Source: Gimesia benthica (GTDB taxonomy: Bacteria; Planctomycetota; Planctomycetia; Planctomycetales; Planctomycetaceae). Taken from it: DNA of 64,000 nt. The notes under the pieces are model-generated. The model was not told where the DNA came from, made no database searches, and saw nothing but the letters and a program-made list of their open reading frames with translations. The stretch is taken from the NCBI RefSeq assembly GCF_009720525.1, contig NZ_CP043930.1:4124501-4188500 (forward strand). The letters run 5' to 3'. Of the stretch, positions 2,170 to 6,678 are shown one piece after another. The position numbers and the translations under genes were made by a program. The stretch's first letter is position 1. Each line of letters starts with the position of its first letter.

Positions 2170-3288
2170 TTAAATCAGGCCAAATCGCAGTGCGTCTCGC
2201 TGTCGAGAAGGACCAATGTACTGAAAGCTGGCGGTCAACCGGCCACGACTGGAAGCGACGATTTGTTTTCGCTGTTTTTCAAAACCAGCCTGCCTCTGAA
2301 CAGTGGATGGTTTCCGGGTCATTTTCCACAAGGGAGAACGGGCGCGGTGGCGGATCATGGCGGGATGGCCGGTGACACTCGTGTAACGGTGCTTGCAACT
2401 GTAGAGCGATGCCACATACTCACTCAATGCATTTCCGATGCCCACTCCCTGATAGTCCGGTAGACAGACCGTGCGGTGCTCCCGATAGGAAGGAGATTTC
2501 GGGTGTGGAAAATACATTACAGCTGTGAAGGCAGCTGGTTGTTCTTCAACAAGTGCCACAAAACAATTGGCAGCCTGGTGAAGGGAAGCGTCTAAATAGT
2601 GATGTTTGCGGAACAGGTGCCACGCATCTCGATGCACGTTAACAATTCTAAGGGAGATTGAGGGCCGTGGTTGCCTTTCGCACCTCCATTGGAAATCATC
2701 CAGTGCCGGCTGGTAAATCCAGTCAGGATTCAGCCAGTCGATAATATCATAATGGCAGGCCACCGCGACCAGCTGTTGATCACGGCGACGAACTGTTTTG
2801 GCAATCGCACAGCTGCCGGTACGGGCGACCATACGATCGACGACGGAAGTGAATTCATCGATTACGACCAGTTCGGAGAGTTCCGCCAGGGCCCGAGCCA
2901 TTCTGACACGAAATTGCTCTCCGTTGGATAACACATGATACGGACGAAGCCAGCCGGGGGGAGATGAGAATCCAACTGATGAGAGCAGGCTGGTGATTTC
3001 TTTGATACCCATTGCTTGCGGGAAGGCATCGATGATGCACTTCTCGCTGGGCCAGACAAAATCATCGACGAACTGATCTTGAAACAGTTCCCTGGCGATG
3101 GTCGTCTTGCCACACCCAGAGGGGCCTACGATCAGACCGATGTTCCAGGGACGCTCGGAAAGTGGAAGTTCCACAGACCACTGTTCACGACTTCGAGTTT
3201 CTGCTGCGAGTCCGAACATCCCTTCCAGTTGCATTACACGCGGAGTTCGAACAATAGGCGATTCCCTTATGAGATCCAGGCGCGACAT
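2170..3288 (-). CDS. ABC-type ATPase fused to a GNAT acetyltransferase domain (COG2401-like)
   Basis: The first half is a soluble ABC ATPase: Walker A GPSGCGKTT at residues 55-63, signature LSNGE at 120-124, Walker B VVIDEF at 141-146 and a switch His179. From about residue 220 the chain becomes a GNAT-like domain, with LPDYQGVGIG near 277-285 resembling the acetyl-CoA loop. This order matches the family described as ABC ATPase fused to a predicted acetyltransferase; its function is not established. There are no membrane segments, so it is not itself a transporter. The start overlaps the end of the ParB-like gene by 22 bases, and a GCAGG motif lies about 8 bases upstream. It is the last gene of the overlapping minus-strand cassette. 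Confidence 0.85.
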   Translation of the reverse strand: MSRLDLIRESPIVRTPRVMQLEGMFGLAAETRSREQWSVELPLSERPWNIGLIVGPSGCGKTTIARELFQDQFVDDFVWPSEKCIIDAFPQAMGIKEITSLLSSVGFSSPPGWLRPYHVLSNGEQFRVRMARALAELSELVVIDEFTSVVDRMVARTGSCAIAKTVRRRDQQLVAVACHYDIIDWLNPDWIYQPALDDFQWRCERQPRPSISLRIVNVHRDAWHLFRKHHYLDASLHQAANCFVALVEEQPAAFTAVMYFPHPKSPSYREHRTVCLPDYQGVGIGNALSEYVASLYSCKHRYTSVTGHPAMIRHRARSPLWKMTRKPSTVQRQAGFEKQRKQIVASSRGRLTASFQYIGPSRQRDALRFGLI

Positions 3289-3824
3289 TGATAACCTGCT
3301 GATTTCAGATATTCCAGAAGTGTGAGTTGCTCCGCTTCAGCTTGGCAGTCAACCAGGACTGAGAAGCGTTCGGTGAGCAGTTCGGTTTCATCGATTCCGG
3401 ATTCCTGGTCAGGTAATTCTGGGGATGAGGATTTCAGATTCTGAAGCAACCCCTGCAGGTCTTCTGATTCTGTTGTAATTGACCCAAGCAGTGCATTGAG
3501 TGCGGATTGATCAGTCTCCGCCAGACTGGTAATCGAGTCAAACGTCGCCAGAACCTGATCTGCTTCCGAGGCTGTCAGATCTGAAATCAGGCAGGGGATC
3601 TTTGTATCTTCGGCGATATTGGCCCGCAGATGACCGTCGATCAATTCGTATTTCCCGTCACCACAATCCCGAACCAGGCAGGCTGCTGCAAATCCAATCT
3701 CATTTAAGATGGTTCGCAGCGCTGTTTCCTGAGCTGCGGGATGGTTTCGCCAGTTTCGGGAGTTAGGGATCAATTGGGAGGCTTTAATTCGCCTGAAACT
3801 TTTTATGCGATCTTTGATTTCCAT
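3267..3824 (-). CDS. ParB-like N-terminal domain protein
   Basis: The 185-residue product opens with a ParB/sulfiredoxin-like domain: residues 15-30 (ASQLIPNSRNWRNHP), then LIDGHLRAN at 61-69, the conserved box of this fold. The C-terminus has the pattern F-V-L-V-D-C, E-Q, L-L-E-Y-L, G-Y-Q-C-R, which I associate with ParB-like proteins of phages and genomic islands. Such proteins bind DNA and may use CTP or cut DNA; the role here is unknown. ATG 3824 is chosen because MEIKDRIKSFRR is how relatives usually begin; an in-frame TTG at 3854 would add ten residues. No HTH domain or ParA partner is visible, so plasmid partitioning is unlikely. It overlaps the ABC-GNAT gene, suggesting coupled translation. 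Confidence 0.82.
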   Translation of the reverse strand: MEIKDRIKSFRRIKASQLIPNSRNWRNHPAAQETALRTILNEIGFAAACLVRDCGDGKYELIDGHLRANIAEDTKIPCLISDLTASEADQVLATFDSITSLAETDQSALNALLGSITTESEDLQGLLQNLKSSSPELPDQESGIDETELLTERFSVLVDCQAEAEQLTLLEYLKSAGYQCRAWIS

Positions 3825-3844
3825 GGGCCGGGTCTTTAGTCGGG

Positions 3845-4105
3845 TTACAGGCAATCCAGACAGCGATTAGAATCGTTTCGCTGTCGAATCTGATCTTTGT
3901 GATAGTCAGCTTTAAAAATGGGGCCGCCACAACGGGCACAGAATGAGATAAGTTCGTGTTTGACCAGCACCGCATTGACGACCAGTTCCGGGTATTCCGC
4001 TTGCGCGATTTTTGCCGCCAGCACATGAGTTTGTGCTTCCCGATCCAGGCGTTTCACCGAGTGTCCATTTTTTTCTCGTGCCAGATAAACAGTAAAGTGA
4101 GGCAT
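3845..4105 (-). CDS. Small zinc-ribbon protein of unknown function
   Basis: This 86-residue protein has CARC at residues 56-59 and CLDC at 82-85, a plausible four-cysteine zinc site at the C-terminal end. The N-terminal half (MPHFTVYLAR, then a helix rich in Ala and Gln) resembles no family I recognise. It starts at ATG 4105, shortly upstream of the ParB-like gene and in the same direction, so it probably belongs to the same transcript. Small zinc-binding proteins of this kind are common in phage and island cassettes, but no role can be assigned. Confidence 0.68.
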   Translation of the reverse strand: MPHFTVYLAREKNGHSVKRLDREAQTHVLAAKIAQAEYPELVVNAVLVKHELISFCARCGGPIFKADYHKDQIRQRNDSNRCLDCL

Positions 4106-4235
4106 AAGTGGTACCTTTTCCTTTCTGAATGAAGATGATTCCGAGACAGTCCATACCGATTATTTTAGACTTGGCTCGTTTTTTGTCTTGGGGTGCATTC
4201 AGTCAGGAGTGTTGATTGGGAACTACCGCGAAAAG

Positions 4236-4670
4236 TTACTCTACCAGTTCCAGATTGAAGAGCGTGTCCTGATCGGCAGGGATAACGATCTCATCTGTCG
4301 TGGGTGGTTTTTGTCGTAACGCATCCGCGATCAAGTAACCGCCGACCGGCACGCCGATTCCGGTTGCCAGCAGTCCAGCTCCCACAGCCAGCCTGGCGAG
4401 TGTTCCAGCCGCATTGCCTGTTGGGGGAAGATATTGATGTGTGACGCTGCTGTAATCTCCGATGTGCATGTCTTCGCCCTCAGGACGATTGTTATCTACA
4501 ATTTCTTTGCCCAGCAGTTTTTCCCGGGTGGACATCACCAGGGAGTCGACGCTGTCAAAGCGTCTCGATGTCTGTCTCAGGTTTTCCGCTCGTTCCCCCA
4601 CTTTCACGCCCCACCACATCTGCGCCATTTTCTCCTTCCAGCTTGTCGGCTGCGTGGTTTCGTTTGTCAT
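4236..4670 (-). CDS. Unknown protein with one glycine-rich membrane segment
   Basis: From ATG 4670 the product is 144 residues. GGAG lies 8 bases upstream, which favours this start over the longer open frame reaching 4736. The first 60 residues are charged and polar and contain the aromatic run MWWGV. Residues about 90-113 form a hydrophobic, glycine-rich segment (LAVGAGLLATGIGVPVGGYL) likely to insert in a membrane, and the C-terminus is acidic. I do not recognise a family. The first 116 bases overlap the 3' end of the upstream gene in another frame. Glycine-rich hydrophobic segments occur in phage virion or lysis proteins, but this is only an analogy. Confidence 0.65.
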   Translation of the reverse strand: MTNETTQPTSWKEKMAQMWWGVKVGERAENLRQTSRRFDSVDSLVMSTREKLLGKEIVDNNRPEGEDMHIGDYSSVTHQYLPPTGNAAGTLARLAVGAGLLATGIGVPVGGYLIADALRQKPPTTDEIVIPADQDTLFNLELVE

Positions 4671-4806
4671 TAAATTCGCTCCAGGAATCCATGAGCTCGC
4701 CGAACGTTCCATTCTGGAACGCCCGGTCGAGCTCATTGTTTTCGTTAATCAGGCGATCATGAAACAGTGTTGTTTGCCTGATGAGTTCTTCCAGTGGGTC
4801 GGTCAT
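4555..4806 (-). CDS. Small charged, probably helical protein, unknown function
   Basis: This 83-residue protein starts at ATG 4806, whose A is also the last base of the upstream TGA (TGATG), a typical translational coupling arrangement. Residues 1-60 are rich in Glu, Asp, Asn and Leu and probably helical (for example LEELIRQTTLFHDRL). The C-terminal 30 residues are Gly/Glu-rich and overlap the next gene for 116 bases in a different frame. No family is recognised. The coupling and strand agree with membership of the cassette, but the long overlap leaves some doubt about how its 3' end is used. Confidence 0.6.
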   Translation of the reverse strand: MTDPLEELIRQTTLFHDRLINENNELDRAFQNGTFGELMDSWSEFNDKRNHAADKLEGENGADVVGRESGGTSGKPETDIETL

Positions 4807-5078
4807 CAGCTGGCCTGCGACGGACCTGCGGGAGTGACTTTACTGGCGACTTCACGAATACCGACCGCTTCATCGAGCGTCACCATCCGTTTATTTTCCA
4901 GGTAATCGTAATCCACGATTTTCTGCACCGTCACAAAGTTATTCTGCGCTACGGTTCCAGTCTGCATGAGTTGCGTCAGCATGTGATTGGCAACATTGTC
5001 GGATAAATCCACAGCCATCTCCTTTTCTCCTTTTTCCTGAATGGGAAGTTCTACTTCTAAAATATCGCCGTCCGGCAT
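4806..5078 (-). CDS. Small acidic protein, unknown function
   Basis: The 90-residue product begins at ATG 5078 with GAGG nine bases upstream, nine bases after the protease stop. It is acidic at the N-terminus (MPDGDILEVELP), has a central helical stretch with ANHML and TQLMQT, and a segment DYLENKRMVTLDEAVG. No cysteine cluster, signal peptide or membrane segment is visible. I do not recognise a family. Its stop overlaps the start of the next gene by one base, so the genes are very likely co-translated. It could be a structural or adaptor component of the cassette. Confidence 0.65.
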   Translation of the reverse strand: MPDGDILEVELPIQEKGEKEMAVDLSDNVANHMLTQLMQTGTVAQNNFVTVQKIVDYDYLENKRMVTLDEAVGIREVASKVTPAGPSQAS

Positions 5079-5087
5079 GAATTCGCC

Positions 5088-5933
5088 TCACTTGTTAACG
5101 GCCTTGAAACGTAATTTGATTGGTTGACCGAGTTGATATCTCTGTTCCTGTTTGACCGATCCGTCTGCACCGATGAGTTGAACGGGAATCTGAGTCTGTT
5201 TTAGTTGAGTGATCTGTTGTTTTAGTCTGGTAATCTCGGACTCCAGTGCAGCAAACTGTTCGTTGTGATTGATTTCTGGTTGTTGCGGTGGTGAAGCGGG
5301 ATCTGATTTCCGATTCACAGGTGATTTGCAATGGGGGAGTCTTCCATACAGATTGATAAGTCTATCTCGAATCAGCATGCTGTCCGTGTAGATGGTGTGA
5401 GTCTGGTCATGCCCTTTAATGATGCCTACGATCTGTCCATTGACAAGAATAGGACCTCCGGAATCTCCTTTTGCGACCAGTCTGGAAAAGCAATGCCCGC
5501 GGCGCGTTACCCGGATGCGGGCTCGCAGGGTTTTGAGGTTGTAAACTCCGTTTGAGTATCCGTAAGCGATAGCCTCCATTCCATCTATCGGTTGAGTGTC
5601 CGAAAGTATGAAACAGTGTGACGCGGGAATTCTTTGGGTTTCCAGGATGGCATAGTCAATCTCCTCTTCATATCGCTTGAAAACGACCCGGGCTTCCCAC
5701 CACGTTCCACCATAGCCGACATGAATGGTTCGTGCCTGAATGACATTGTGCGCGGCAGTAATGTAAACGGAGCAGTCCGCGATATTTCCTACGAATGCGC
5801 AGGCGCCGGTTCCGATGAGCTGGCGACAGCCTTGGGGAGTGCAGTTTGTCTCTGTTGTTCTGACAGCGAGTGCCTGAGCGTGCAGGCAGGATGTAGACAA
5901 CATGACGAGCAGGAAGAGGATAAATCTCACCAT
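5088..5933 (-). CDS. Exported trypsin-like serine protease with C-terminal coiled coil
   Basis: A signal peptide spans about residues 1-20 (hydrophobic FILFLLVML, then CLHAQA). The chymotrypsin-fold triad is visible: His62 in TAAHN, Asp93 in DYAIL and Ser158 in GDSGGP. Several cysteines (31, 36, 45, 54, 107, 148) could form disulfides outside the cytoplasm. After the protease domain, residues about 225-255 form a Gln/Leu/Lys-rich coiled coil, ending in a short beta-type tail. There is no PDZ domain, so it is not a DegP-type protease. It overlaps the phospholipase-like gene by 7 bases and lies 9 bases before the next gene. Its place inside a small phage-like cassette is unusual for a secreted protease. 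Confidence 0.88.
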   Translation of the reverse strand: MVRFILFLLVMLSTSCLHAQALAVRTTETNCTPQGCRQLIGTGACAFVGNIADCSVYITAAHNVIQARTIHVGYGGTWWEARVVFKRYEEEIDYAILETQRIPASHCFILSDTQPIDGMEAIAYGYSNGVYNLKTLRARIRVTRRGHCFSRLVAKGDSGGPILVNGQIVGIIKGHDQTHTIYTDSMLIRDRLINLYGRLPHCKSPVNRKSDPASPPQQPEINHNEQFAALESEITRLKQQITQLKQTQIPVQLIGADGSVKQEQRYQLGQPIKLRFKAVNK

Positions 5934-6301
5934 TGGAGGTACCTGTTAAAAAACAAGAGAAAGTAGTGCCAGGGGTTGAGTGGAACTTTACCTGGCGCCC
6001 AGTGAAAGGCGGCGACTCCGAACAGCCTGACGCGACGGTAATAAATGTTTGCCATAAACTTGCCGAGATCGCAGCGGCGCAGATTACGATACAGGGCCGC
6101 ATCAGCGCGTGCCCGGTCTCGTTTACAACTTCCCAACTGGTAGGCGTAATCGTGCCAGTGGCAGGCGGGTCGGAGATCAACGCCTCCCCACTGGTCTGGA
6201 GAATAATTACAGCCGTTCGAGACAAAGTCAGCAGGAGGTGTCGGGCCTTCCATCTGTTTTGTCAGTGATTCAGGCAGATCTGAGAGATGAATCTCGGGCA
6301 T
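5927..6301 (-). CDS. Phospholipase A2-like protein
   Basis: This 124-residue protein has the secreted/viral PLA2 active-site pattern: NGCN-SPDQWGG, then CHWHDYAY with the His50-Asp51 pair, followed by a helix with Asp67. PLA2 hydrolyses the sn-2 ester of phospholipids using a His-Asp pair and calcium. Similar short domains occur in parvovirus capsids and in phage and bacterial proteins. No signal peptide is present; the C-terminus is hydrophobic and aromatic (HYFLLFFNRYLQW). The start overlaps the preceding gene's stop by one base and the end overlaps the protease gene by 7 bases. The fold call rests on motif reading only. Confidence 0.75.
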   Translation of the reverse strand: MPEIHLSDLPESLTKQMEGPTPPADFVSNGCNYSPDQWGGVDLRPACHWHDYAYQLGSCKRDRARADAALYRNLRRCDLGKFMANIYYRRVRLFGVAAFHWAPGKVPLNPWHYFLLFFNRYLQW

Positions 6302-6546
6302 TAGTGCTCCCCAAATACGCGGTCTTCCATGCGGCTGATCCGTCGTTCGTGTGAATTGACCATTTCTATTAACAGCTCTTTATTCGCATCTAGCTTTTCG
6401 TCGATCTGTATCAACTGGTGACTGTGTTCGATGAGTGTCTTAGCGGTCCAGGTGATTGCTCCTACTCCCCCTGCCACTATGGGAGAAAACACACAAGCGA
6501 TGACCCAGGCAGGAATGAACAGTCCTTTTTGAGGTTGTATGGGCAT
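6301..6546 (-). CDS. Small one-TM protein with coiled-coil tail (holin-accessory-like?)
   Basis: The 81-residue product has one membrane segment at about residues 10-35 (IPAWVIACVF, then SPIVAGGVGAI) followed by a charged helix (residues 40-75, with LIQIDEKLDANKELLIEM) that should form a coiled coil. This single-TM plus coiled-coil layout resembles small phage lysis or tail-accessory proteins, but no family signature is certain. It is the first gene of the overlapping cassette, and its stop shares a base with the start of the PLA2-like gene. The minus-strand terminator at 6642-6678 lies upstream, so the cassette probably has its own promoter between that terminator and 6546. Confidence 0.65.
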   Translation of the reverse strand: MPIQPQKGLFIPAWVIACVFSPIVAGGVGAITWTAKTLIEHSHQLIQIDEKLDANKELLIEMVNSHERRISRMEDRVFGEH

Positions 6547-6641
6547 TTGTCTCTCTAAGATTCAAAAGTCAGTGAATGGGGTAATTGTCAAAGAGAGAGT
6601 ATCATCCGGATCGGCGTGGTGCAGACAAGCTTGATCTGCAT

Positions 6642-6678
6642 AAAAAAAGCACCTGTTGTTGCTCAGAACAACAGGTGC
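6642..6678 (-). terminator. Rho-independent terminator of the gene at 6737-7090
   Basis: A perfect 12-bp inverted repeat (GCACCTGTTGTT at 6649-6660 and its complement at 6667-6678) with a 6-base loop is followed, on the minus strand, by a run of seven T (complement of 6642-6648). It lies 59 bases after the stop of the zinc-binding protein gene and separates that transcript from the cassette starting at 6546. Confidence 0.9.

Follow-up and report, generated by a model that had tools for sequence, protein, structure and literature searches.

What do nine tightly packed minus-strand genes, among them a phospholipase, a protease, a ParB-like protein and an ATPase, do in the chromosome of Gimesia benthica? 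They occupy positions 2170 to 6546 of the window, i.e., the whole 64,000-nt stretch analysed here (contig NZ_CP043930.1, positions 4,124,501 to 4,188,500; the host genome comprises 8.03 Mb on this single contig). A sequence-only reading of the window had treated them as a cassette in its own right. This frame is too narrow: the nine genes are not free-standing, they are the upstream part of tailed-phage late genes fixed in the genus Gimesia, i.e., the cassette belongs to a larger, domesticated phage element. The element is of phage origin, keeps a fixed place, is split by host genes and has repeatedly lost its head-tail genes. The cell probably still makes use of it, perhaps for packaging and handing on DNA. 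We see an even chance that the nine genes and the distant head-tail genes form a particle-making element resembling a gene transfer agent (GTA), where we infer both the particle and its cargo of host DNA.

All nine open reading frames (ORFs) proposed earlier are present, with the spacing described, i.e., tight apart from one 130-base gap. In the direction of transcription, the unit is headed by an 81-aa coiled-coil protein with one transmembrane (TM) segment (6301..6546, judged by eye; aligned at 81-99% identity in the genus). It overlaps by 1 base a phospholipase A2 (PLA2)-like protein (5927..6301) with His50-Asp51, for which alignment, phage homologs and a match to the prokaryotic PLA2 family of Pfam (PF09056, 1.2e-6, barely above the cut-off) speak. 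After an overlap of 7 bases follows a trypsin-like serine protease (5088..5933) with an N-terminal hydrophobic stretch and a coiled-coil-like tail, both seen by eye. A 9-base gap leads to g6 (4806..5078, 90 aa), which is strongly conserved (79-100% in the genus) and shares 1 base with the fast evolving g5 (4555..4806, 83 aa, orthologs at 52-98%). The latter overlaps by 116 bases with g4 (4236..4670, about 144 aa, a single TM-like stretch by eye, orthologs in the genus). Across the 130-base gap lies ZnRib (3845..4105, 86 aa), a zinc ribbon protein by its two CxxC pairs, with Cys56, 59, 82 and 85 invariant in 9/9 aligned orthologs. Overlaps of 10 and 22 bases, respectively, connect it to the ParB-like protein (3267..3854) and this to ABC-GNAT (2170..3288, 372 aa), an ABC ATPase fused to a GNAT acyltransferase and a predicted DNA-modifying enzyme. 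Since the orthologs are kept together as a block across Gimesia, the packing goes beyond chance.

The domains named by the sequence-only reading (ABC, GNAT, ParB-like, PLA2, trypsin-like) are supported by Pfam or PHROGs and by motif retention, i.e., the His-Asp pair of PLA2 as well as TAAH/GDSGGP of the trypsin are found in all 15 orthologs scanned (window included). For the trypsin gene, the Pfam Trypsin value of 0.0023 is below the cut-off; its ortholog P0004 matches Trypsin_2 above it. ABC-GNAT matches ABC_tran at 8e-8 (above the cut-off) and GNAT at 1.5e-4 (below the cut-off) in Pfam, and phrog_11143 at 4.6e-104 in PHROGs. Its predicted structure joins an ABC ATPase to a GNAT domain with the conserved residues retained, which is the fusion with intact motifs that marks the family; here, structure matches of the whole protein covered the ABC part alone, so a second model was made. 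The ParB-like protein is weak in Pfam (0.023) and clearer in PHROGs (phrog_620, 5.9e-9), and its orthologs measure 183-185 aa by the start rule used here, compared to 195 aa earlier. ZnRib, g4, g5, g6 and the TM protein obtained no confident family in the Pfam and PHROGs searches. The idea of g6 as an R-body-like protein was dropped (no Pfam match), and the TM protein was rejected as a phage family, with no relative in viral contigs (164 pattern matches, 0 confirmed) or PHROGs. By position only, it is holin- or spanin-like.

To place these genes, we collected relatives of ABC-GNAT from 60 phage records, 39 of which cover at least 80% of the query, and from IMG/VR, where 80 of 188 stretches were retained. 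Weak ABC transporter matches (E above about 1e-20) were not counted. A ParB-like ORF precedes ABC-GNAT in 79 of the 80 IMG/VR loci, usually overlapping or adjacent. Downstream, the longer of the two ORFs 3' of ABC-GNAT was assessed for 73 of 100 viral and genome loci, leaving out loci without a suitable ORF and near-duplicates. A phrog_2 terminase is next or next but one in 33/73 of these, and other terminase families were found in further or the same loci. The order ABC-GNAT, TerL, portal is seen in SL25 and L002. The domesticated phage module entertained by the sequence-only reading fits these data: late genes of phages, in many cases just ahead of TerL, are where the homologs stand, and throughout the genus the block keeps one place. 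The Gimesia pair thus consists of the same two proteins as the phage pair (phrog_11143), often likewise before TerL; in contrast to phages, it is fixed in a bacterial genus with 45 kb of host genes before TerL.

The prediction for ABC-GNAT reportedly originates in a 2013 paper by Iyer et al. A GNAT coupled with an ABC ATPase is described as a predicted DNA-base acyl-modification system (PMC7824862, section 3.4.7). The view that the gene combination matches no known system therefore does not hold for ParB and ABC-GNAT, a common phage pair that is predicted, in a published comparative study, to acylate a DNA base. Mom of phage Mu (PF25680, PDB 8bv8) is likewise a GNAT-type phage enzyme, and in the Mu-like Komp_PAO1_1 ABC-GNAT comes after the tail fibre genes, where its position is comparable to that of mom in Mu. 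Unlike Mom, ABC-GNAT is fused to an ABC ATPase and falls into a separate PHROG; the window protein has no PF25680 match up to E 0.1, whereas Mu Mom itself matches at 2.4e-75. Two observations concern the partners. In Komp_PAO1_1 (L150:5852-6001), a 49-aa phrog_28816 protein overlaps ABC-GNAT at ParB's usual place, and the C-terminus of the window ParB weakly matches phrog_28816 (E 0.073); the ParB tail may be the part binding ABC-GNAT. In Oenococcus phage vB_OeS_unk162 and Lactococcus phage P335, ABC and GNAT are two separate overlapping genes, the first annotated as ABC transporter, and Streptococcus matches look alike.

The other half of the cassette also has phage relatives. Proteases recur before ParB, as this gene follows a papain-like protease and a TM protein (the latter by eye) in L002 and a 644-aa ORF with GDSGGP in L146. 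A PLA2 scan of viral contigs left two loci from 61 pattern matches. The first (L248, from a metagenome) has a TM protein (by eye) in front and shows identities of 78% for PLA2, 58% for trypsin, 83% for g6, 59% for g5 and 60% for g4. The second (L249) encodes PLA2 (65%), trypsin (43%), a g6-like protein (by eye), g4 (26%) and one ORF, followed by TerL and portal. Both keep PLA2, trypsin, g6(-like) and g4(-like) in the order of the cassette; unlike it, they show no match to ZnRib-ParB-ABC-GNAT within the 16-kb stretches covered. Over 16,372 bases, L249 does not differ from a second, separate prophage in the G. algae genome, which lies there at about 7.58-7.64 Mb (G014:C1, L265-L267) with its own TerL and portal.

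Because of these positions (before TerL in L249, TM protein first in L248) and of an analogy to Caulobacter, TM protein, PLA2 and trypsin would likely open the cell envelope for release. According to PMC13236601, GTA lysis in Caulobacter requires trypsin-like peptidases, i.e., LypABC releases domesticated phage particles; the likeness to Gimesia is by analogy only. LypABC, as described there, has an NLR-type ATPase and a CARD-like domain and no PLA2, whereas the Gimesia cassette has one. The lysis/release unit considered by the sequence-only reading thus fits, given PLA2-trypsin shortly before TerL in a Gimesia prophage.

The head-tail genes are found 43-71 kb left of the window (chromosome 4,053,808-4,081,555), on the same strand as the cassette. 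PHROGs and Pfam recognise TerL (phrog_2, 2.4e-11), portal, HK97 capsid, head-tail adaptor, neck and tail proteins. The protein at the prohead protease position is a weak match (phrog_80, 0.0019; protease-like gene below), a 752-aa protein stands at the place expected for the tape measure (by position), and large tail-end proteins complete this virion block. Both blocks together span about 77 kb of chromosome, host genes included. Wherever a genus genome has ABC-GNAT and TerL on a single contig (12/12), 38.6-48.0 kb separate the two, on the same strand. In G. benthica, the gap contains asnS (asparaginyl-tRNA synthetase) and a threonylcarbamoyladenylate synthase gene, so that the element is unable to excise as a unit. 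A second split concerns the virion block itself: an aminotransferase and a CxxCxxCC protein lie between portal and protease-like gene in 16/16 genomes whose contig reaches that far, beside a symporter that is missing in two (G003 and G010). An active prophage would be contiguous, excisable and equipped with an integrase; here, asnS lies between the blocks, and none of the genome's 26 tyrosine recombinase matches falls between 4,022,437 and 4,895,555 (tyrosine type only). Four IMG/VR contigs (L250, L252, L255, L256) are pieces of the fixed Gimesia element listed as viral, with L250 matching the G. benthica virion block at 99-100% identity.

The cassette is fixed within the genus. ABC-GNAT is present in 16/17 genus genomes, and the sole miss (G005, 76% complete) carries TM protein, PLA2, trypsin and g6 at a contig end, such that cassette genes occur in 17/17. 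Fourteen genomes have all nine genes on one contig as single stop-free matches covering 78-100%, including one (G015) whose ABC-GNAT is cut at 91% by a contig end; the cassette is spread over contigs in G010 and partial in G005. The cassette is flanked by the same host genes across the genus. A portal match is found in 17/17 genomes, about 40-50 kb from the cassette where the contig is shared, and TerL is 97-100% covered and stop-free in 16/16 genomes whose contig reaches it. Outside the genus, PLA2 is rare (3/132 relatives, 2 of these 3 weak), and among 58 trypsin homologs those bearing species names are mostly Gimesia. The condition under which the sequence-only reading would be refuted, homologs confined to complete prophages, gives a mixed outcome: phages do have homologs, but in Gimesia the cassette is fixed, 45 kb from the capsid genes, and persists in species without a capsid. 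Local variation is seen as well. In G010 (C118, L274, from 3874), g4 is followed by a diverged second ParB-like ORF and a 198-aa methyltransferase-like ORF (by eye), which is a local cassette variant. In G003, a 278-aa ORF sits between ZnRib and g4, which we take to resemble phage Gp37/Gp68 proteins.

Next, we consider how the parts evolved. For the close pair G000-G008, dS is 0.07-0.34 in cassette and head genes compared to 0.18-0.29 in three adjoining host genes. The respective dN/dS values are 0.02 for capsid and g6, 0.03 for PLA2, 0.04 for the TM protein, 0.10 for TerL, 0.11 for ABC-GNAT and 0.15 for both ParB and ZnRib, i.e., closely related genomes show purifying selection on the core. 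The tail-end genes of the same pair show dS values of 1.2-1.5 and have thus been replaced. The same abrupt break from a near-identical core to diverged tail genes is seen in G001/G002 and G007/G014. This is also reflected in the trees, where a gyrB-like gene (profile match below its cut-off) served as reference. TerL and portal share 8/9 splits with it and the head genes 5/6 (no strong conflict), in contrast to 3/5 and 2/5 for two tail blocks with two strong conflicts each. That is, TerL, portal and head genes are largely vertical, the cassette follows gyrB less closely, and tail genes are exchanged between species.

The virion block has been deleted in several species at differing breakpoints, e.g., from the protease-like gene to GT657 (G012) or to a 597-aa tail gene (G013), from capsid to tail (G016) and from tail to tail (G011), with cassette and TerL intact there. 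Nine genomes have a whole capsid gene; in G010 contig ends split it, G016 has a truncated copy, and G004, G005, G006, G012 and G013 lack it. G015, whose portal contig ends early, gives only a weak match at 22% identity. Such losses are what one expects of an ancient prophage that was immobilised and broken up in the Gimesia ancestor and now decays slowly, functionless today. Virion deletions with differing breakpoints in G004, G006, G011, G012, G013 and G016, the missing block in G005, the broken portal in G003, G016 and G008 and the interrupted PLA2 in G014 all agree with decay. This is countered by the retention of cassette genes in every genus genome and of a stop-free TerL wherever it can be seen, by dN/dS well below 1 for G000-G008 (0.02-0.20 in most cassette and head genes), and by tail exchange between species, which is unexpected for a dead remnant. 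We thus consider pure decay unlikely. One portal break is of its own kind: in G008:C10, about 43 kb are inserted into the gene between 131979 and 174939.

Where the head-tail block is lost, no ordinary particle is expected, and the cassette is there either a mere leftover or serves some separate purpose. The latter leads to a second explanation, in which the cassette (perhaps with TerL and portal) was co-opted alone, e.g., for host DNA modification by ParB/ABC-GNAT or controlled lysis, and the virion is dispensable. The intact cassette in species without a capsid is in line with it. So is the nine-gene omega, which is 0.075 (G004) and 0.137 (G012) where the virion is lost and 0.135 (G000) and 0.139 (G008) where it is kept, i.e., selection on the cassette is not visibly relaxed after virion loss; these branches are short, however, and mix time before and after the loss. 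Furthermore, TerL is equally retained, which makes little sense without a particle, and the capsid is strongly selected in the G000-G008 pair that keeps it. Co-option of the cassette alone is therefore unlikely in our view.

A defence or conflict cassette, with lipid and protein cleavage as effectors and the ATPase/ParB pair as sensor, had been considered by the sequence-only reading too, and gained little. Within PADLOC (version of 2023), no single system gives a full-length multi-gene match; the matches are weak and partial, with ABC-GNAT matching mad3 (2.5e-10 across 48 residues) and mad8 (1.5e-5), ParB matching MTase_II (6.4e-5) and trypsin matching RT-Protease (6.9e-6). CARD-NLR defence does include trypsin-like peptidases and phospholipases (PMC13236601). 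The genes, however, keep a fixed place in the genus instead of forming patchy islands, and the phage contexts place them among late genes, which renders defence very improbable. Independent re-infection, with related phages entering one and the same site in every species separately, as could be imagined from the tail exchange and from related prophage-like loci in G050, G072, G107 and G134 (capsids related at about 50% in the first three), is hardly credible given the conserved split with its common 38.6-48.0 kb interval, the same two host genes inside every virion block reached and a core synonymous divergence in G000-G008 that resembles that of host genes.

Upstream of the cassette we find a promoter-like element CTTGTC-N7-CGCCGAT (6601..6629, minus strand) and, between the unit and the host gene g10, a strong intrinsic-terminator hairpin (6642..6678, minus strand; -19.6 kcal/mol, z -5.4). 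The form CTTG(A/T)C-N7-YGCC(R)AT precedes three genes, i.e., the first cassette gene, TerL and the protease-like gene. With a matrix built from pattern-selected sites (14 of TerL, 15 of the protease-like gene), the best site upstream of the cassette lies at -74 to -85 in 15/15 genomes; its score is matched by less than 1% of 150-bp background segments in 10 of them and by 3-15% in the other five. Genome-wide, G000 holds 18 exact copies of CTTG(A/T)-N8-YGCCRAT compared to 5 for the reversed control (e.g., C1:1280189, 1655275, 5114032, 7129935). A private regulon of cassette, TerL and protease-like gene was thus rejected, as the motif is not exclusive to the element. Given these counts, the motif resembles a host promoter class, perhaps one of Gimesia, and is no proof of co-regulation.

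How well do these results fit a GTA? We used the six features given with the viriform definition of Kogay et al. 2022 (PMC9662315). Caudoviricete-derived proteins are present with TerL, portal, HK97 capsid, connectors and tail (proteins only). The endogenisation is full, with two blocks 45 kb apart and host genes between and inside them. Vertical inheritance and co-diversification hold for TerL, portal and head genes only. Since these three features are found on sequence and the other three (particles filled with mostly random host DNA, an element genome that does not fit whole into them, delivery to other cells) need experiments, we speak of a GTA-like element and not of a GTA.

Several observations weigh against a GTA-like element. 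It is known here from genes alone. Of 15 good-quality genus genomes, 5 lack the capsid or have a truncated one, the portal is damaged in G003, G016 and G008, and in G014 PLA2 is broken by inserted DNA that carries a transposase-like ORF (by eye). Higher dN/dS values in G000-G008 are found for g4 (0.20), trypsin (0.26), neck (0.26), the protease-like gene (0.43) and g5 (0.55, probably biased by the overlap with g4). The cassette tree shares only 6/11 splits with the gyrB-like tree and shows two strong conflicts, and the TerL and portal tree shows one. Among the proteins scanned, no endolysin or small terminase was recognised, and the promoter-like element is not specific to the phage-derived genes. 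Finally, the ParB/ABC-GNAT pair is located away from TerL in Jace, EastWest and Komp_PAO1_1 and elsewhere among virion genes in L136 and L140.

If the GTA-like element works as we envisage, ParB/ABC-GNAT would modify DNA, as predicted, particles would be formed from the TerL, portal, head and tail genes and would carry host DNA, and their release from the cell would fall to the membrane protein, the phospholipase and the protease. PMC9662315 describes GTAs as endogenised, frequently at more than one locus, and as diversifying together with their hosts, and the three groups with an established genetic basis are from alphaproteobacteria and spirochetes. Compared by description, the Gimesia element shares with RcGTA, BaGTA and BhGTA the caudoviricete head-tail genes fixed in the host and a mostly vertical core; it consists of two blocks with no tyrosine recombinase inside. 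In contrast to these GTAs, it belongs to another phylum, contains PLA2/trypsin and ParB/ABC-GNAT genes, is known from genes alone, has lost its virion block in several species and exchanges its tail genes.

Within the accessible open-licence literature, no report of a planctomycete or Gimesia GTA was found; PMC11694666, PMC12213060, PMC9208149 and PMC8346489 are among the papers covered. We tentatively propose, as a possibility on the doubtful side, that the element may be the first GTA of Planctomycetota, i.e., an independently tamed and split phage that would mark host DNA by ParB/ABC-GNAT, be released by phospholipase and protease in place of a classical endolysin and change its recipients by tail swaps between species. 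If true, this would add another virus to those converted into gene-transfer devices, as a further independent origin of GTAs and a testable route of gene exchange in Planctomycetota. Species with and without particle genes that share the same putative release and modification genes provide a natural series in cultured bacteria, in which the role of the phage ParB/ABC-GNAT pair can be asked.

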